Of a stretch of 64,000 nt of DNA, positions 8,416-60,116 are shown in pieces; positions within the stretch are counted from its first letter, which is position 1, and each line of letters begins with the position of its first letter. The DNA comes from Methylococcaceae bacterium TMED69 (GTDB taxonomy: Bacteria > Pseudomonadota > Gammaproteobacteria > Ga0077536): contig NHDW01000009.1 in assembly GCA_002170535.1 (NCBI GenBank), positions 7,021-71,020 of the forward strand, in the 5' to 3' direction. A program made the position numbers and the translations under genes. Under the pieces are notes generated by a model. The model ran no database searches. It was not told the origin of the DNA and saw nothing but the letters and a program-made list of their open reading frames with translations.

Positions 8416-9225
8416 ATGTTAATGACATCAAAGGAAAAAATTAAGCCATCTAAAGAAAAGCCCTACTACGAGCCAATAAGGGATGAAATACAGGTCTTTT
8501 CTTCTGCATACAAAAATAAATTACCTGTCCTCCTTAAGGGCCCAACAGGATGTGGGAAAACGAGATTCGTTGAGTACATGGCGTGGAAACTCAGACAAAG
8601 ATTAATTACTGTCGCCTGCCACGATGACCTCACTTCGTCTGACCTAATTGGAAGATATTTGGTAAAAGGAGGCCAAACAGACTGGATTGACGGCCCATTA
8701 ACAGAAGCCGTAAGAAACGGTCATATTTGTTACCTTGATGAAATTGTAGAAGCAAGAAAAGACACAACCGTAGTTATCCATCCGTTGTGTGACGATAGAA
8801 GGATTTTACCAATCGAAAAATTGGGAGAATTTTTATCAGCTCCACCCGAATTTTCTTTAGTTATCTCATATAACCCAGGTTATCAATCAATTCTAAAAGA
8901 TTTAAAACAAAGTACACGTCAACGGTTCGTAGCGATAGAATTCGACTATCCTTCCCACGATTTAGAATTAAAAATTCTAATGACTGAAAGTAAAATTAAA
9001 AAACCAATAGGACAAAAATTAATAAAATTTGGACACATGACACGAAACCTAAAAGAAGCGGGTCTTGAAGAAGGGGCGAGCACTAGGTTATTGGTAAACG
9101 CAGCAAAACTAATTGACGGAGGGATTTCTCCTTTTACAGCAACAAATACTGCGATCGCTCTACCATTGACTGACGATTATGAAATGCTTAGAGCACTAGA
9201 CGAATTAAGCAGAACGATTTTCTAA
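8416..9225 (+). CDS. CbbQ/NirQ/NorQ/GpvN-family (MoxR-like) AAA+ ATPase
   Basis: 269 aa; Walker [22 protein letters not shown], Walker [18 protein letters not shown]. Confidence 0.92.
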
Positions 9226-9256
9226 ATTCTATAGTCAAATTAATAGAGGTATTAAC

Positions 9257-11050
9257 ATCGAAAATCAGACACACAGTAACGATAACAATGTATGTAATTT
9301 TAATGAGATCGCAACGTTTCTTACATACTACCTTAGAGGCCTTGGAGGGGATATTTGTGATATAGAAACCGACCAGAGTATTTATACGGATTCACAGACG
9401 ATCTACCTACCCGAATCGCTTTCGTTTAATCAATCGAAAGAAGCTAGCAGAAAATTATTTCAGATAATCCTTTCTCATCTATGGGCTCAGAATTTTTATG
9501 GAACTTGGAATAATAAAGTTATACTTGAACTCGAGCGTAAAGGTGAGTCACTAAATCAATTTCTAAAAATATTTTACCGTCTCGAGTGCATCAGACTAGA
9601 CTACTGTATAAAACGCGACCTACCTGGATTATGGGCACAACAAGTATCTTTTAAATCAAAAGAGCAAAGAAATATCGATATCTGGAGTCTATGGAAAAAT
9701 AAAAGTAAAATTTTATCAACCGAGCAAAGCACGTCATTCACGTCCCTAGCGCTAACAAGCAAATTAATTGATGATCCCTTGCCGACACTAGAAATATTTC
9801 AACATGAATTTCAAGTTCAAGAACTTCGGGAAATATTAGAATCGAAAACAGAAGCTCAGAAAGACGATTTTCGCTTATCATTACAGAAATTTTTAGATGA
9901 AAACCTTGACCAGCAAGAACAAGGCGAAAGTCAGAAGGAACAAATAGAGATTGATCAATTAGATAATGATCAAGTTAAAGGAAAGCCCCAGTACGAATTG
10001 TCTGTAAATGGCGAGAAATTAGAAATTAGTCAAAATCTATCAGACACGATAGGCGCGATTATAAAAGACATAGGATACCTACCGGATGATTACTTAAAGC
10101 CAAATTCAAATGGTCGATACGTAGACCAATTATCAGCTCAAACTCCGGACGGGAACGAAAAAGAATCAAGCGAAGAAACAAAAACTTTTTTTTATGACGA
10201 GTGGGATTGTACAAGTCAAGCTTATAAAAAATTTTTTTGTCAACTCAACGAGGTAGATATAGTTGAAGGTGACGATGGCTTCATCCAGCAGACTCTTAAA
10301 AAATATAAGGCCAACTTGAAATCAATTAAAAAAACGTTTGAGGCGATAATCGCCGAGAACTCGATCCAAAGAAAACAAGTAGATGGCGACCACTTAGATT
10401 ACAACGCTATTATCGACACTATGCCTGATCTTCTTATGGGCAACGAAATAAGTGAACATTTATATGCTAGATATCAAACCAAGGAACGTAACATAGCTGT
10501 CATGTTTATGGTAGATATGAGCGGCTCGACACTCGGCTGGGTCAATGATGCTGAAAGAGAATCCCTTGTGTTGTTGTGTGAAGCTCTGACTTTGTTGGGT
10601 GACAGATATGCAATATACGGTTTTTCTGGAAGAACCAATAAAAAGTGTGAGGTCTACCGAATAAAAGAATTCGATGAGCCATACGATTATCATGTAAAAA
10701 GTCGAATTAGTGGTATTCGGCCAAAAGCATATACTAGAATGGGAGTTGCTATTAGACATTTGGGGCGTAAATTACAACACACTAACGCGAAGACAAAACT
10801 GCTAGTTACGCTGTCTGACGGAAGGCCCGAGGATTATGGTGGATACAAAGGCACTTACGGAATTGAAGACACTCGCAAAGCCTTGTTAGAACTTAAACAG
10901 TTAGGGATCAATCCTTTTTGTGTAACCATAGATAATGAAGCGCAAGAATACTTGCCACGAATGTATGGCAAGATAAACTACACAGTAATTGATGATGTCA
11001 AAAAATTACCTTACAAAGTTGCTGACATATATCGAAAATTAACCTGCTAG
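9257..11050 (+). CDS. NorD/CbbO-like protein with C-terminal VWA domain
   Basis: MIDAS motif DMSGST and C-terminal VWA fold; the frame is open from 9209, so the called TTG start at 9779 truncates about 174 codons; proposed ATC start at 9257 behind AGAGGT (9245-9250). Confidence 0.8.
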   Translation: MENQTHSNDNNVCNFNEIATFLTYYLRGLGGDICDIETDQSIYTDSQTIYLPESLSFNQSKEASRKLFQIILSHLWAQNFYGTWNNKVILELERKGESLNQFLKIFYRLECIRLDYCIKRDLPGLWAQQVSFKSKEQRNIDIWSLWKNKSKILSTEQSTSFTSLALTSKLIDDPLPTLEIFQHEFQVQELREILESKTEAQKDDFRLSLQKFLDENLDQQEQGESQKEQIEIDQLDNDQVKGKPQYELSVNGEKLEISQNLSDTIGAIIKDIGYLPDDYLKPNSNGRYVDQLSAQTPDGNEKESSEETKTFFYDEWDCTSQAYKKFFCQLNEVDIVEGDDGFIQQTLKKYKANLKSIKKTFEAIIAENSIQRKQVDGDHLDYNAIIDTMPDLLMGNEISEHLYARYQTKERNIAVMFMVDMSGSTLGWVNDAERESLVLLCEALTLLGDRYAIYGFSGRTNKKCEVYRIKEFDEPYDYHVKSRISGIRPKAYTRMGVAIRHLGRKLQHTNAKTKLLVTLSDGRPEDYGGYKGTYGIEDTRKALLELKQLGINPFCVTIDNEAQEYLPRMYGKINYTVIDDVKKLPYKVADIYRKLTC

Positions 11051-43065: not shown

Positions 43066-44334
43066 CTAATTTTTATTTGGAATTTTCAATAAATCCCCCT
43101 TCTGAATTATGTCGCTTTTTAATTCATTAAATTGGATCAATTCCTCTAAGTCAACGTCAAATTGATGAGCAATTTCTGAAAGTGTGTCACCGATTATTAC
43201 TATATGCGTCCGGCCCTCACTATTCAAAAAATACTTTAGTCCAAAATAATCGCAGACGCCACGATAAATCCAACTGGCAATTTTTATTTGGGTACGAGGT
43301 TCACTTAATCTCTTCTCTTCAATAGGGTTTGAGATAAAAGCTGTTTCTATTAGAACCGAAGGAATATCCAACGCTTTTAAAACCATGAATCCCGCATATT
43401 GCACGAAAGGTTGATGGACGGGTCCATAATTACTTAATTGTTTAATTATGCTATCAGCGACCTTTATACTTTCATCTATCGTGGCTCTCTGGGATAGATC
43501 TACTAAAGTTTCCCACAAGTTTTCGTCTTTTTTTTCTCTTTTTATCGAGCCAATGAAATCACTTTCGTTTGACTTATTTGCCAGCATTCGGGCTATCTCA
43601 CTACTAGCTCCATGCTGAGAAAGCACATAAACTGATGAACCTCTTGCTTGTCGATTTTTAATTGCATCAGCATGAACCGACAAAAACAAGTCAGCATTTG
43701 ACTCTCTGGCAACCCTAACTCTTTGTCTAAGTCGTATTTTACTGTCATCTTTACGGGACAATATTGCTTTCATCTGAGGATGGCCATTAATATAATCAGC
43801 TAGGTAATAAGAAACAGCTAGTGTGATATCTTTCTCCAACACACCAGTTGGCCCAACCGCGCCGCTGTCAATACCGCCGTGTCCTGCGTCAACAACCACT
43901 TTAAATATAGAGTTAACATTTGGACTCGAATTGACTGCGAAAGTGCCTTCTTTAACTTTTAAGCGGAAAGTGAGCTTTGTCGCACTCTCCCTCTCGAGAG
44001 TAAGTTTTGAAGGATCAACGGTTAGCTCGAGAACAACACGTAACAAATCAGGATTGCGGAAACCGTGCCTCATCACTTTTACTATTCCGGCCTTATCAGA
44101 AAGTTTAGCGCTAAATCCATGAAAGTCCAATGATTTAATATCAAGAACTAGTCGAGAGGGTTTTTGTAAAAAAAAAGAAGATACATCATCCAAATCATCC
44201 CCGTTAAGGGTAACAACCGAAAAAGATTCGTAATTATTAACTTCGACCTTCAGAGCTGCGGAAACATTAGCAGGAATCCAAAGCTCATTAAAAACTATTA
44301 TCAGAGTTATGCAACATTTAATATATTTAATAAT
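43066..44334 (-). CDS. amiB: N-acetylmuramoyl-L-alanine amidase with C-terminal LysM
   Basis: DAGHGGIDSGAVGPTGVLEKDITL, SVHADA, LIETAFISNP, LysM HIVIIGDTLSEIAHQFDV; extended upstream of the called TTG (44193) to an ATT at 44334, giving signal peptide IIKYIKCCITLIIVFNELWIPANVSA behind SD GGAGGT (44346-44341). Confidence 0.88.
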   Translation of the reverse strand: MIKYIKCCITLIIVFNELWIPANVSAALKVEVNNYESFSVVTLNGDDLDDVSSFFLQKPSRLVLDIKSLDFHGFSAKLSDKAGIVKVMRHGFRNPDLLRVVLELTVDPSKLTLERESATKLTFRLKVKEGTFAVNSSPNVNSIFKVVVDAGHGGIDSGAVGPTGVLEKDITLAVSYYLADYINGHPQMKAILSRKDDSKIRLRQRVRVARESNADLFLSVHADAIKNRQARGSSVYVLSQHGASSEIARMLANKSNESDFIGSIKREKKDENLWETLVDLSQRATIDESIKVADSIIKQLSNYGPVHQPFVQYAGFMVLKALDIPSVLIETAFISNPIEEKRLSEPRTQIKIASWIYRGVCDYFGLKYFLNSEGRTHIVIIGDTLSEIAHQFDVDLEELIQFNELKSDIIQKGDLLKIPNKN

Positions 44335-44353
44335 ATAAACACCTCCGAACGCT

Positions 44354-44806
44354 TTAAACTGTCAAAGCTTGAACTAATCTTCTGCCCTCTTGCGTGTGCG
44401 CTTCGATTACTGCAACACGCCCACTATCGCTCACTTTAAACGTAATATTCAAATCAATTTTTGAAATAAAGGTTAATTCGAATTTAGGCCACTCTATTAA
44501 ATAAGTGGTTCTATTTCTCGAGTTTGCATCAAGCCCAAGATAATTTAATTCATCGACATCATTTAATCGAAACAAGTCTATATGAAATAAATCGTATGAC
44601 TCAAATTCATAATATTCAATCAACGTAAAGGTCGGGCTTTTAACGGGCCCTCTATAATTAAGCGATTGTAGAAAGCCTCTAGCAAACGTCGTTTTTCCTG
44701 ACCCTATCTGCCCCTCTAATGTGATGGAAGCGCCAGGGGTGTGAGCTGCGCCAATCAGTGCTCCAAGTCTCTGTGTTTCCAACTCATTCCTTAAAATTTT
44801 TACCAT
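44354..44806 (-). CDS. tsaE: tRNA threonylcarbamoyladenosine biosynthesis ATPase TsaE
   Basis: LEGQIGSGKTTFARGFLQ, SPTFTLIEYY, HIDLFRL, IEWP. Confidence 0.95.
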   Translation of the reverse strand: MVKILRNELETQRLGALIGAAHTPGASITLEGQIGSGKTTFARGFLQSLNYRGPVKSPTFTLIEYYEFESYDLFHIDLFRLNDVDELNYLGLDANSRNRTTYLIEWPKFELTFISKIDLNITFKVSDSGRVAVIEAHTQEGRRLVQALTV

Positions 44807-54122: not shown

Positions 54123-54291
54123 ATTAAAATCCTATTGTAAAATAATCGTTAAATTCTAACCCAAATCGTGTATAAGTATAAGGAAAATAATCTAGACAAA
54201 ATGGACAAAAAAAAATTTAATTTACATAAAATCAAATTTTCGGAAAGCTCATCTTATTAACCTTGTAATAAAAGTCAAAGGAGATGTCAGT

Positions 54292-56469
54292 ATCAAAGAA
54301 GTAGTTTTAGTTGGGAGTGGTCATGCGAACCTAACCGTAATAAACAAAAAAAGCATGGGATTTTTTCAAAACACCAGGATAACACTTGTAAATCCAAATA
54401 TTGAGCAACTCTACTCCGGCATGATCCCGGGACTAATCTCAAAAAAGTATAATTTCGATGAATCTAGCATCGATTTGATAAAGCTTACCCTAAGCGCCAA
54501 CTGCAGATTTTTTAAAGACACTCTCGTGGCGATTGAGCCAGATAAAAAAATTATATTATGCAAGGAACGAGGGCGCATAGAATTCGATATCTTAAGCATA
54601 AGCACTGGTTCTGATACAAAAAAAATTCCTGGTTCAAAAAACTCTAATTTTTTGAATCTAAAACCATTTCATTCTTTTTTTTCCGATTTTGAGGTTTGGA
54701 TCGCTTCCTTAAAATGCAATCGCCAATACATTCGGATAGGCGTAATCGGCGGAGGAATAGCTGCATTGGAAATCATATTGGCAGTAAAAAAACGATTAGA
54801 ATCTCACCTAAAAGATATGGCTTATAATACTAAACTTGATATTTTCTTTCTCACTAAAGAAGAATCCCTATTTCAATCCCTTGACACTATTTTAAGAAAA
54901 CAATGCCTAAGAGTTGTTAAAGAAAACAAAATCACAGTTATTCCAAGCTTTCTTGCATCTAAAATAGTGGGAAATCATGTTTTTACCCCTGAGGGAAATT
55001 CATTTCAACTTGATCTTGGCATTTTGGCAACGGGACCATCTCCACAACCTTGGACAAAAATAAGCGGGCTTCCTTTATGTGAAAATGGTTTTATTAGAGT
55101 AAACAAGGATCTTACTTGCGAACACTTTGAAAATATTTTTGTCACTGGCGACGCCGCATCTTTAATTAAATATCCAAAACTACCAAAATCAGGGTTAATA
55201 GCGGTCCGTCAAGGACAAACGTTAGTCAAGAATATACAAAAAAAAATAGATAAAAAGCGCCTCGTACCCTTCAAGCCCCAAGCTTTAAAGCTCTCGTTAA
55301 TTGGAACCGCTACCGGCGACGCCATAGCCTCATACAACCGGCTAGCGTTGCGAGGGATGGTTTTTTGGCATCTAAAAAGTTTTATCGACCTTAGATTCAT
55401 TAATAAATTTAAATCATTTGCAAAAATGAAAAAAAACGACCTCCCCCTTAATGAGCTTCAAATAGAGCGATGTGGAGGATGTGGCTCCAAAGTTGGCTCG
55501 AATATCCTGAGAGGTGTTTTAGAAGAATTTAAAAAAGATCAGAGTTTTTCTAACATAGATAACATGGATGAAGATGCAGGTTTTTCAATAAGTTATAGCG
55601 ATAAGCTAAATTTACATACAATTGACGGATTTCGGCAACTTATCGACGAACCTTACGATATGGGGGTAATTACTGCACATCATTCAGTCAGCGATATTAC
55701 AGCGATGGGGGGGACACCTAAAACCGCCTTGGCGTTAGTTGGTGTTCCTTTAAATGATGAAAAGTTAATGAAAAATGATTTGCGTCTAGCTCTAAGGGGT
55801 TTGCTCGATGGGCTTAAAACTTATTCAGTAACTGTGATTGGAGGACACACCAATGAAGCCGAATCTATTTCACTCGGATTAGCTATTAATGGGGTTGTAG
55901 GCAAAGATCAGGTAATCAAAAAAAACAACATTCAGCTAGGCGATCGGATTATTTTAACACAGGCCATCGGGGCCGGTGTAATTTTTGCTGGATTGATGGC
56001 TGGACATACAAAAGGCAAATGGCTAAACCAAATAGTAAACGAAATTAAACAAAGGAGAGACGACATTACAGATTTTATTGGTAAATTTGCAAGCAGTTGC
56101 ACGGATGTTACCGGTTTTGGTTTAGTTGGCCATCTTGTTGAAATGACAAAAAATAATGCTTACGGCATTACAATCAATTTAGAAAAAATTCCATTTTTCG
56201 AAGGAGCTAGAGAATTATCATTAAAAAAGGTTCGGAGCAGTTTGTTCCCGCAAAATATCAATGTGCCGTATGAAGTTGATTGCCAGATAAAGGATGATCC
56301 GCGTTTTGATTTGTGTTTCGACCCTCAAACTGCAGGTGGATTTCTACTTTCTGTTGATGCCAACAAAGCTAATCATTGCGTGGATATGCTGCTTGAGCTT
56401 GGTTATAGCCGTTGCTGTGAAATTGGAACAGTGGTCGACGGCCAAAGTGGCGTTAAAATATGTCGATAA
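54292..56469 (+). CDS. selD: Fusion of FAD-dependent (NDH-2-like) oxidoreductase and selenide, water dikinase (SelD)
   Basis: N-terminal KEVVLVGSGHANLTV dinucleotide-binding motif upstream of the called ATG (54355); YSGMIPGLI; SelD domain RCGGCGSKVGSNIL, SVSDITAMGGTP, GGHTNEAESI; proposed ATC start at 54292 behind AAAGGAG. Confidence 0.9.
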   Translation: MKEVVLVGSGHANLTVINKKSMGFFQNTRITLVNPNIEQLYSGMIPGLISKKYNFDESSIDLIKLTLSANCRFFKDTLVAIEPDKKIILCKERGRIEFDILSISTGSDTKKIPGSKNSNFLNLKPFHSFFSDFEVWIASLKCNRQYIRIGVIGGGIAALEIILAVKKRLESHLKDMAYNTKLDIFFLTKEESLFQSLDTILRKQCLRVVKENKITVIPSFLASKIVGNHVFTPEGNSFQLDLGILATGPSPQPWTKISGLPLCENGFIRVNKDLTCEHFENIFVTGDAASLIKYPKLPKSGLIAVRQGQTLVKNIQKKIDKKRLVPFKPQALKLSLIGTATGDAIASYNRLALRGMVFWHLKSFIDLRFINKFKSFAKMKKNDLPLNELQIERCGGCGSKVGSNILRGVLEEFKKDQSFSNIDNMDEDAGFSISYSDKLNLHTIDGFRQLIDEPYDMGVITAHHSVSDITAMGGTPKTALALVGVPLNDEKLMKNDLRLALRGLLDGLKTYSVTVIGGHTNEAESISLGLAINGVVGKDQVIKKNNIQLGDRIILTQAIGAGVIFAGLMAGHTKGKWLNQIVNEIKQRRDDITDFIGKFASSCTDVTGFGLVGHLVEMTKNNAYGITINLEKIPFFEGARELSLKKVRSSLFPQNINVPYEVDCQIKDDPRFDLCFDPQTAGGFLLSVDANKANHCVDMLLELGYSRCCEIGTVVDGQSGVKICR

Positions 56470-56606: not shown

Positions 56607-58400
56607 ATGTCTCACCGAAATTTACTAAAATTATGCGTTTTCGTCACGGCCTTATGGTCATTCCATTCTCACGCCGAAGACCCCCATGCGGCCGTCTTCG
56701 CTGAATCAAATTACCCCAGCGCAATACAATGTGCATCTTGCCACCCGAAAGTCTTTTGGGAGTGGGCCGTTTCAAACCACGCTTACTCTTCTATATCACC
56801 AATGTTTCATAAATTTGAACAAGCCCTTAACAGCCTTGCATCAGGAACTATTGGTTCTTTTTGTGTTAGATGTCATCAACAAGTTGCGACGCAGATGGGT
56901 GAACCTCGCGAAAAAGCGCTTTGGGAGCGGTCAGATATATCTCGCGAGGGGGTGACTTGTATCACTTGCCACCGAATCTCAAATGAGTTCGGAAAAGTAA
57001 ATGGAGAACGACATGTCATGCCTGCACCGATTAATGCTCCAGTTTACGGAGCGGGCACTGGGAATGCTATTGAGCAGGTCTTGACCAATGCTGATAAATA
57101 CGAGGTGAGCGTCCTCACCGACGATACTGCGCCGACTAACGATCAATGGTCAGTAATCCACACAAAACCAATCGAATTTACACAAATATCAAAAAGTGAG
57201 TTTTGTGTTTCCTGCCACCAAGTAGCAGTCCATCCTGGGATCAAACTGGAAGTTGTTTGGGAGCAGTATCGGGCAAGTCCAGCGGCAGATGCCGGAATCA
57301 CCTGTCAAGATTGCCACATGGGAAAAGTTCCAGGCGAACCGGCAGGATACGACACATGGCCAATAGCAATTGTGAACGGACAAACAGTAGGTGACCCAAA
57401 CGCCAAGCATTCCAATCACTTGTTTTATGGTCCTGGGTATCCGATCGCACATCCAGGCCTTTTTCCTTTCAATCCCAAAGCCATTAAATGGTCAATAGAT
57501 GATTGGCTGAAATTCGACTATCGGTCTCCATGGGGAGAACCAAAATGGGAAGAAAAAATAGAGAAAGGGCTGATCAAAGCTGAATTTCCAGAAGAGTGGA
57601 GCAACAGAGAAGATCGCGAAGAAGCTAGATACGTCATTTCACTTAACTATAAGTTGCTAGAAGATAAGAAGAAATCAAGGATCGAGGTGATGGAAAACTC
57701 CATGCACATTGATGGCCCATTTTTTTCAAGCAAAATGGAAACAGGGAAATCACTTAAATTTAGTTATAATATAAAAAACAAGGACAGCGGTCATAACCTG
57801 CCATCGGGCAGTCTTGGTGCGCAACCTGAGCTGTGGTTTAACGTTGCGCTAGTTGACCCTGACGGAGTTACCGTTTGGGAGACCGGTTATGTTGATAAAT
57901 ACGGAGACATGGCCGATATCCATTCACTCGAGGTTGCAGCAGGTACGATTAAATACGATAAACAACTATTCAATTTGCAAACTAAATTCCTTACTACTAA
58001 CGTTAAAGGTACAGATAGAGAAATGTATTTGCCTGTTAATTTTGATGTTGACCAATTGCCCCATATCAGACCTGCTGGATTACCGACTTCAGTAATCAAT
58101 CACCCTCCTCTGATTAGGATGGAAGGAAGAAGCTTACCACCACTTTCTTCAAGAAAGGTAGATTATAAAGTACCTGGCAAATTAATTACGAAACCTGGTA
58201 AATATACATTACAATCTAGGTTTAGAAGTCGTGCTGAACCCATTTACTTTATGAAATTTGTTGGAGCAACAGTTGATATGGAACAGTCCATTAATGAATG
58301 GATGATCGATATCCACCCTTACGCAGCGGAATTCGAAATAAAAAATGGAAAGAAAAATAAAGTAGACAAAAATACGTATCCAGGTTATGTCGCAAAATAA
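56607..58400 (+). CDS. Secreted pentaheme c-type cytochrome
   Basis: Signal peptide plus five CXXCH motifs (CASCH, CVRCH, CITCH, CVSCH, CQDCH) and a beta-rich C-terminal domain. Confidence 0.88.
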   Translation: MSHRNLLKLCVFVTALWSFHSHAEDPHAAVFAESNYPSAIQCASCHPKVFWEWAVSNHAYSSISPMFHKFEQALNSLASGTIGSFCVRCHQQVATQMGEPREKALWERSDISREGVTCITCHRISNEFGKVNGERHVMPAPINAPVYGAGTGNAIEQVLTNADKYEVSVLTDDTAPTNDQWSVIHTKPIEFTQISKSEFCVSCHQVAVHPGIKLEVVWEQYRASPAADAGITCQDCHMGKVPGEPAGYDTWPIAIVNGQTVGDPNAKHSNHLFYGPGYPIAHPGLFPFNPKAIKWSIDDWLKFDYRSPWGEPKWEEKIEKGLIKAEFPEEWSNREDREEARYVISLNYKLLEDKKKSRIEVMENSMHIDGPFFSSKMETGKSLKFSYNIKNKDSGHNLPSGSLGAQPELWFNVALVDPDGVTVWETGYVDKYGDMADIHSLEVAAGTIKYDKQLFNLQTKFLTTNVKGTDREMYLPVNFDVDQLPHIRPAGLPTSVINHPPLIRMEGRSLPPLSSRKVDYKVPGKLITKPGKYTLQSRFRSRAEPIYFMKFVGATVDMEQSINEWMIDIHPYAAEFEIKNGKKNKVDKNTYPGYVAK

Positions 58401-58433: not shown

Positions 58434-60116
58434 TTGATGTTAAAGGCAGTAAGATATAATTATAATAGCCTATTTGGCGTCACAGTGGCGCTAGTGGCTC
58501 TTGTCCTTTTATTGTCAATTAACTTTGCTACAGCACAAGTTTTGCGGAAAGGGGTAACTGATACTGAAGCAGATCCAGTAATTCCTGAACCGGCTGAAGG
58601 CAAAGTGCATGGCGAGGATTACCACCATCATCATGAGCCAGTTAAAATGTCGGATGGCGCTAAACCGACAAAATATAATTCCGAAGTCTTCAAGCCAGAC
58701 CCTTCTTATGAAGACAAGCCTTATGATGTTGAAGAACAGCTCAAAATATATGGGGGCAAATATAAAATAGAGGACGGCGCCGCGCATTATTCTCGAGGTG
58801 AAGTACCAAGACCGGTAATAGAATGGGGTTACCCAATGTACCAAGAAGGACCTATTGGAGCTGGCTTCGATGTTTGGGGTAGTAAAAATCTGTTCAGGCC
58901 ACAACTTTTAGTATTCGGTGACTGGAGATTTGGCTTGGTTCATAATGACAATGGAGCACTAGACACCTCTCAAATTGCAACGAGACTTAATCTAAACGTT
59001 GACTTAAGATTAACAGCAACGGAGAGAATACATGTATTTTTAAGGCCGTTTGACAGAGTAGAACAGGGGAAAAGTCTTCGCCACGAATTTGGCGGATCGG
59101 TGCAAAACACGCGAAAAGAGAAAAACGAAACTATTTTAGATGTGACCCCAGAGGCCTTTTTTTTCGAGGGAGAACTGGGGGCGATCGTTTCAGGCCTAAC
59201 AGATACTCACACTAGCTTCGATCTTCCCTTGTCTTTCGGTTTCATGCCTTTATTCTTTCAAAATGGCATTTGGATGGAGGACGCCTTCATGGGCGGAGCT
59301 GTATCGCTCACCGCCCAGAATAGCTCTTTCTTTGATATCACAAACTATGACATAACGCTTTTCGGCGGTTTCGACAGAATTACATCAAAAGCAATTGTCG
59401 AAAACAACGGGAGTTTTGATGATCACAGAGCCAACCTGATAGGTTTAGCCGCTTTTCTTGATATAGATCAAGCATATATCGAAGCCGGTTGGGCCTATAC
59501 GCATGATGGTGGCCCACGGTCAAACGGTGATTTTAGTTATCACAATATGACTTTAGCTATAACAAAACGTTATTTTGGCAAGGTCTCTAATTCCATGCGA
59601 GCTTTTTGGAGCGTTGGTCAAGATCCTGGGAACGGGTTAGGCAAAACAGCAGATGGCTATCTGTTTTTAATTGAGAATTCACTTATAACTTCTAAGCCCT
59701 CAACTTTGGTACCTTACCTCAATCTATTTTACGGGAAAAATAGACCGCAATCTCTCGCACGAGATTTTGGAGCCGGCGGAATTCTAAAGAATACAGGTAT
59801 TAACTTTGAAACAGATGGTATGACAGGATTTCCGAAGCTCGATGACACGGCCCTTGATAGTGCCGGAGGGGCTCTAGGAGTCTCTTATTTGTTTAACTTG
59901 AATCAGCAGCTTGTCGTCGAATTGGCTGGACTGACACCTTTGGGAGATGATGTTATGCGTGGTCGAACCGCGCGTGGGGACCAAATCGCAATAGGAGTGC
60001 GATACCAAAAACCCCTCTCAAAATCTTGGATATTTCGAACGGACGGAATGATAGGTTTTAGAGAGGGTCAAAGCGATATAAATGGAATCCGAGTTGAAAT
60101 GAGAATTAAGTTTTGA
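58434..60116 (+). CDS. Predicted outer-membrane beta-barrel/porin-like protein
   Basis: 560 aa; signal sequence; alternating amphipathic strands in the C-terminal two-thirds; terminal Phe (IRVEMRIKF*); no CXXCH. Confidence 0.7.
   Translation: MMLKAVRYNYNSLFGVTVALVALVLLLSINFATAQVLRKGVTDTEADPVIPEPAEGKVHGEDYHHHHEPVKMSDGAKPTKYNSEVFKPDPSYEDKPYDVEEQLKIYGGKYKIEDGAAHYSRGEVPRPVIEWGYPMYQEGPIGAGFDVWGSKNLFRPQLLVFGDWRFGLVHNDNGALDTSQIATRLNLNVDLRLTATERIHVFLRPFDRVEQGKSLRHEFGGSVQNTRKEKNETILDVTPEAFFFEGELGAIVSGLTDTHTSFDLPLSFGFMPLFFQNGIWMEDAFMGGAVSLTAQNSSFFDITNYDITLFGGFDRITSKAIVENNGSFDDHRANLIGLAAFLDIDQAYIEAGWAYTHDGGPRSNGDFSYHNMTLAITKRYFGKVSNSMRAFWSVGQDPGNGLGKTADGYLFLIENSLITSKPSTLVPYLNLFYGKNRPQSLARDFGAGGILKNTGINFETDGMTGFPKLDDTALDSAGGALGVSYLFNLNQQLVVELAGLTPLGDDVMRGRTARGDQIAIGVRYQKPLSKSWIFRTDGMIGFREGQSDINGIRVEMRIKF

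Follow-up and report, generated by a model that had tools for sequence, protein, structure and literature searches.

The textbook bacterial gene with an AUU start codon is infC, pcnB is a further gene with a near-cognate start, and IF3 normally disfavors both AUC and AUU as sites of initiation. Well-supported near-cognate starts in bacteria are few, and include those of infC and sigR (PMC5472188). The infC gene starts at AUU in E. coli and at AUC in Streptomyces, and in E. coli infC fidelity mutants, translation from non-canonical codons is 3- to 15-fold higher (PMC5472188). In Streptomyces, a GTC start keeps expression of sigR low under IF3 (PMC5472188). The enzyme described below also has known counterparts. 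Cyanobacteria are among the organisms known to carry fusions of an oxidoreductase to selenophosphate synthetase (SelD), and one proposal for the oxidoreductase part is that it reduces a selenium compound for SelD (PMC2432076).

An oxidoreductase-SelD fusion gene with a long open frame upstream of its first canonical start codon

The window, by which we mean the whole 64,000-nt stretch of DNA that was analyzed, carries on its plus strand a gene of 725 codons plus stop (54292-56469, counted from the start codon proposed below). Judging from profile matches and alignment, this gene is best explained as coding for an NAD(P)H/FAD oxidoreductase, intact and joined to selenophosphate synthetase. The match to TIGR03169 (FAD/NAD(P) oxidoreductase N-terminal to SelD) scored 287.7 bits, slightly under the curated cut-off of 310, and covered the full length of the profile (1-365 of 365), which placed the protein with this oxidoreductase domain. 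Membership in SelD was indicated by TIGR00476 (224.2 bits, cut-off 125); PF07992 was above its cut-off, and PF00586 and PF02769 were also matched. The score for TIGR04369 (fusion_not_SelD) was 399.6 bits, below the curated cut-off of 700, and the protein was not assigned to that family. The SelD (selenide, water dikinase) domain extends from 55459 to 56367 on the plus strand, with the CGGCGSK active-site motif just upstream of and within it, and the R, C, G, C, G and K of RCGGCGSK were invariant in an alignment of fusions. Downstream of selD on the same strand are a gene for a multihaem c-type cytochrome (56607-58400) and a 560-amino-acid ORF without a Pfam match (58434-60116).

The frame of the fusion gene is bounded upstream by an in-frame stop (TAG, 54193-54195) and is open from 54196. 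Its first ATG, GTG or TTG is the ATG at 54355-54357, codon 53 of the open frame. The gap between the upstream stop and the first canonical codon thus amounts to 53 codons, compared to a median of 4.5 among 1160 ORFs selected from 1.25 Mb of the same genome, only 6 of which had gaps of at least 50 codons. The in-frame stretch 5' of the proposed start (54196-54291) contains a Shine-Dalgarno sequence (SD), AAAGGAG (54277-54283), and a spacer of 8 nt, ATGTCAGT, separates it from the ATC at 54292-54294, the proposed AUC start codon. An ATG at 54284 abuts the SD out of frame and reads MSVSKK before a TAG (54284-54304). The initial annotation of this region was confirmed base for base: the frame open to 54196 without ATG, GTG or TTG before 54355, the coordinates of the SD and of the ATC 8 nt from it, and the reading of the out-of-frame ATG.

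In this genome, the distance from GGAG to an in-frame ATG was most frequently 5-8 nt, and the spacing at ATC 54292 falls inside this peak. The only other in-frame codon within 5-8 nt of the SD is AGT. To judge how often such an arrangement arises by chance, we used dinucleotide shuffles of the 159-nt stretch; an in-frame ATH with an SD match of at least 6 nt at good spacing was present in 165 of 5000 (~3%; 3.3%). By itself, the pair of SD and ATC is real evidence, suggestive yet not decisive. Spacing 0, as at ATG 54284, was almost unused (one case in the count). A role for this ATG as a leader peptide or a decoy, suggested in the initial annotation, was rejected: with zero SD spacing and six codons, the ORF shows nothing beyond chance and is probably not functional, no Rfam family matched the start region, and the local RNA around the start folded no more strongly than shuffled sequences. 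A promoter scan of the region upstream found nothing above chance.

Relatives of the fusion carry the FAD-binding strand upstream of ATG 54355

We aligned 15 fusions and surveyed the starts of 94 relatives with a readable N-terminal motif. The first beta strand and dinucleotide-binding loop of the window copy, VVLVGSGHAN (54301-54330, plus strand), aligned with VLVGGGHAH/S of the relatives, and the match to TIGR03169 begins at 54298 (residue 35 of the open frame), before ATG 54355. Every orthologue inspected has its GxGH strand 5' of the position equivalent to 54355. That ATG aligned near an internal Met common to the relatives (FGM), well after the GxGH loop in the 15 fusions, and is internal by homology. 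Because the GxGH strand is found in all related fusions checked and would be deleted by a start at 54355, translation should begin upstream; on this comparison, 54355 cannot be the normal start. The comparison with orthologous fusions that the initial annotation had proposed bore out its claim that a start at 54355 removes the dinucleotide-binding strand.

The codon at 54292 encodes the residue just before the K-E of KEVVLVGSGHAN, aligned with V/I-K-D of the relatives. The distance from the start to VLVGGGH was 8-13 codons in most relatives, compared to 4 codons for AUC 54292. In alignments with solved structures of SQR (3hyv) and NDH-2 (4nwz, 5na1), the AUC-initiated product matches from its residues 2-4 onward. 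Because these solved chains start within a few residues of the first strand, M-KEVVLVG would be a normal N-terminus.

A canonical start 5' of the motif (ATG, GTG or TTG) was present in 93 of the 94 relatives, and none of these orthologues was found to start at AUC. The exception, in Gammaproteobacteria bacterium SZUA-142 (L246), has no ATG, GTG or TTG 5' of the motif and probably starts at a CTG that overlaps the stop of the previous gene (CTGA). Conservation of a non-canonical start was thus not found among orthologues. Identity to the nearest complete orthologues is only 33-37%. A single-protein search of genome contigs found no close relative of the fusion, an alignment-based search found 80 distant fusions, and the sole copy from the same genus (G002:C24) ends at a contig edge before the N-terminus.

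The cell has a pathway that requires SelD

Genes for selA, selB and tRNA-Sec are located together elsewhere in the genome (G000:C7:101371-106260, in L219). SelB scored over its cut-off, and selA was recognized by its sequence and its position beside selB; the start of selB is apparently a TTG overlapping the selA stop. A gene around position 84436 of another contig (G000:C2, in L076) reads ...VPM-TGA-PVCHQTVC..., with the in-frame TGA followed by PVCHQTVCLIARYLEE. The frame 3' of this TGA is conserved in a genome of the same genus, as expected for a selenoprotein, and the gene probably encodes one; we take it to resemble the selenoproteins of glycine/sarcosine/betaine/proline-type reductases. 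A selenouridine synthase was looked for in this genome and not found. Because selA, selB, tRNA-Sec and a UGA-containing selenoprotein candidate are all present, SelD would be needed and should be under selection. It seems unlikely that the fusion gene is a relic.

Few other genes in the genome lack a canonical start codon

We surveyed 1.25 Mb of stretches from the same genome, and found about five genes that lack a canonical start where the N-terminus is expected: infC, an AmiB/C amidase gene, bioF, the SelD fusion and norD. The AUU start of infC in this genome was the positive control of the survey. The gene for the AMIN/N-acetylmuramoyl-L-alanine amidase (AmiB/C; 43066-44334, minus strand), between tsaE- and miaA-like genes, would start at AUU 44334 or at the next AUU, 44331, behind the SD GGAGGT (44346-44341); the whole locus spans 43066-44361. 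It has no canonical start before codon 56, a signal-peptide-like N-terminus follows the tandem AUU AUU, and AUU 44334 opens the sequence where a relative from the same genus has its likely start. In bioF (G000:C3:144975-146138; L083:4975-6138), the apparent AUU start, the third codon of the open frame, immediately follows the stop of the upstream gene; most homologues align from query residues 4-27, and the first canonical codon is number 43. SDs accompany the AUU starts of infC, amiB/C and bioF. A NorD-like VWA gene (9209-11050, plus strand) is a possible third case in the window, with AUC 9257 behind AGAGG, no ATG, GTG or TTG in the first 190 codons, and an N-terminus that is shortened compared to relatives; a search of the 1.25 Mb found no remnant of the missing part. 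This gene overlaps the end of a NorQ-like gene.

Most of the ATH codons with an upstream SD in the survey were the codon just before a normal ATG. Using BLAST against two genomes of the same genus, we could judge 417 genes; leaving aside the gene with the probable Sec UGA, only norD clearly had no canonical start close to its aligned N-terminus. Non-canonical starts are rare in this genome, and the prior for an AUC start is low because no more than about five came up in the survey. We considered a genome-wide relaxation of start selection through an odd IF3, and rejected it: the IF3 gene is present and intact with the usual C-terminal domain, its sequence looks normal, and there are only about five cases. 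Neither tRNA-Met in the stretches searched was identified as the initiator. The bioF and amidase genes, lacking canonical starts and with AUU behind an SD, are a more interesting lead than the SelD fusion.

Proposed initiation at AUC 54292 and alternative explanations

Several findings together favor AUC 54292 as the start: a canonical start is missing at the homologous N-terminus, the SD is at native spacing (8 nt) from the AUC, homology requires a start upstream of 54355, the gene appears to be intact and needed, and there are other near-cognate starts in the genome. We consider it probable that translation of the fusion starts at this codon, giving a product that begins (f)MKEVVLVGSGHAN.... 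The initial annotation had stated that the fusion needs the AUC. ATC 54292 is indeed the codon best placed for the SD, but "needs" is too strong given three alternatives, an indel, GTC 54274 and a base error.

In the indel alternative, which is unlikely, translation truly starts at ATG 54284, which is separated from the fusion frame by an indel of one base (a real mutation, frameshifting or a consensus error), as in MSVSK|EVVLVGSG. With one extra A, ATG TCA GTA TCA AAG AAG TAG would read MSVSKEVVLVGSG, and the resulting 7 codons before the motif are closer to the 8-13 of the family than are the 4 of AUC 54292. This start would require initiation at a spacing nearly absent from the genome; the homopolymer concerned is only 3 A, and about 520 comparisons of homologues gave no real frameshift. 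It is quite improbable that the codon is really ATG, with the base at 54294 miscalled or a rare variant, even though this single substitution would create a perfect start 8 nt from the SD and scattered N are found elsewhere in the assembly. The window itself is without N. Furthermore, if consensus errors had made about 4 near-cognate starts in 1124 genes, extrapolation from that rate predicts hundreds of genes with errors such as premature in-frame stops, and none were seen. A search for breaks covered 525 homologous ORFs of two genomes of the same genus; the seven apparent breaks were all antisense shadows and none was a real frameshift or stop. Because no gene was truly broken, base error is unlikely as a general cause, and sequence error seems an unlikely origin of the non-canonical starts. 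The suspicion of a local error-prone patch, raised by three cases in 64 kb, is weakened by bioF and infC, on contigs C3 and C7, and by the lack of broken genes. In the contigs of this genome (G000), single N letters occur in clusters; between the clusters are blocks of roughly 40-75 kb that have no N, and the window is in one of these blocks.

Among other upstream non-canonical codons (GTC 54274, ATT 54256 and ATA 54268), the most plausible is GTC 54274, and initiation there or at another of them is slightly less likely than the indel. In Streptomyces, sigR has been proven to start at GTC (PMC5472188), and 54274 is 10 codons before the motif, a frequent start position in relatives, but it has no SD upstream, and the good SD would fall within the coding sequence. 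Very little probability remains for a protein that starts at ATG 54355, the first canonical start, or for a gene in decay, as the N-terminally shortened norD in the same window might suggest. The former would be missing the FAD-binding strand that all inspected orthologues have; in the latter case one would not expect 704 remaining codons to be intact with conserved catalytic motifs, in a cell with Sec machinery that requires SelD. Finally, transcriptional slippage on a run of nine A (54207-54215, plus strand), which begins 6 nt from the first base of an out-of-frame ATG at 54201, could join that ATG to the fusion frame, and a transcript with 8 A would be open into the gene. We regard this as extremely improbable: the nearest SD-like sequence, AAGGA, is 16 nt away, and the relatives have nothing equivalent to the extension of more than 30 residues that would result.

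Possible consequences and comparison with known systems

If AUC 54292 is the start, the SD AAAGGAG would place fMet-tRNA on this codon to give (f)M-KEVVLVGSGHAN.... As a near-cognate codon, AUC would be discriminated against by IF3 as at infC, and the yield would be low and IF3-dependent. The outcome could be a low, possibly IF3-responsive supply of selenophosphate for the selenocysteine pathway. We infer the low yield, the IF3 dependence and any regulatory benefit by analogy. It is doubtful that the AUU or AUC starts of the selD fusion, bioF, amiB/C and infC form a small regulon coordinated by IF3 that includes selenophosphate supply; if IF3 control were true, the fidelity of translation initiation would be tied to selenium use. 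A probable AUC start on the enzyme of selenium entry, together with AUU on bioF and the amidase gene of the same small genome, suggests that gene callers underestimate how common such starts are. Callers restricted to ATG, GTG and TTG can delete a cofactor-binding motif, in this case the FAD-binding end of the enzyme.

The SelD fusion is a further gene with a near-cognate start, on an already known enzyme fusion. Its proposed start resembles that of infC, a case present in this genome too, in being an SD-supported AUH codon missed by gene callers. The non-canonical start of infC is widespread and autoregulatory, whereas that of the selD fusion is not conserved and IF3 control is proposed by analogy only. 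As with Streptomyces sigR (PMC5472188), the gene is unrelated to translation and its non-canonical start would lower expression; the sigR start was shown experimentally and is conserved across Streptomyces, whereas that of the fusion is predicted from sequence. Fusions of a COG1252 NADH oxidoreductase to SelD (PMC2432076; TIGR03169 plus TIGR00476) have the same domain order and motifs as the window copy, and differ in the canonical start that 93 of 94 relatives have 5' of the motif. The SZUA-142 fusion is of the same family and likewise has no canonical start upstream; there, the likely start is a CTG in the overlap of adjacent genes, whereas in the window it is an AUC led by an SD.
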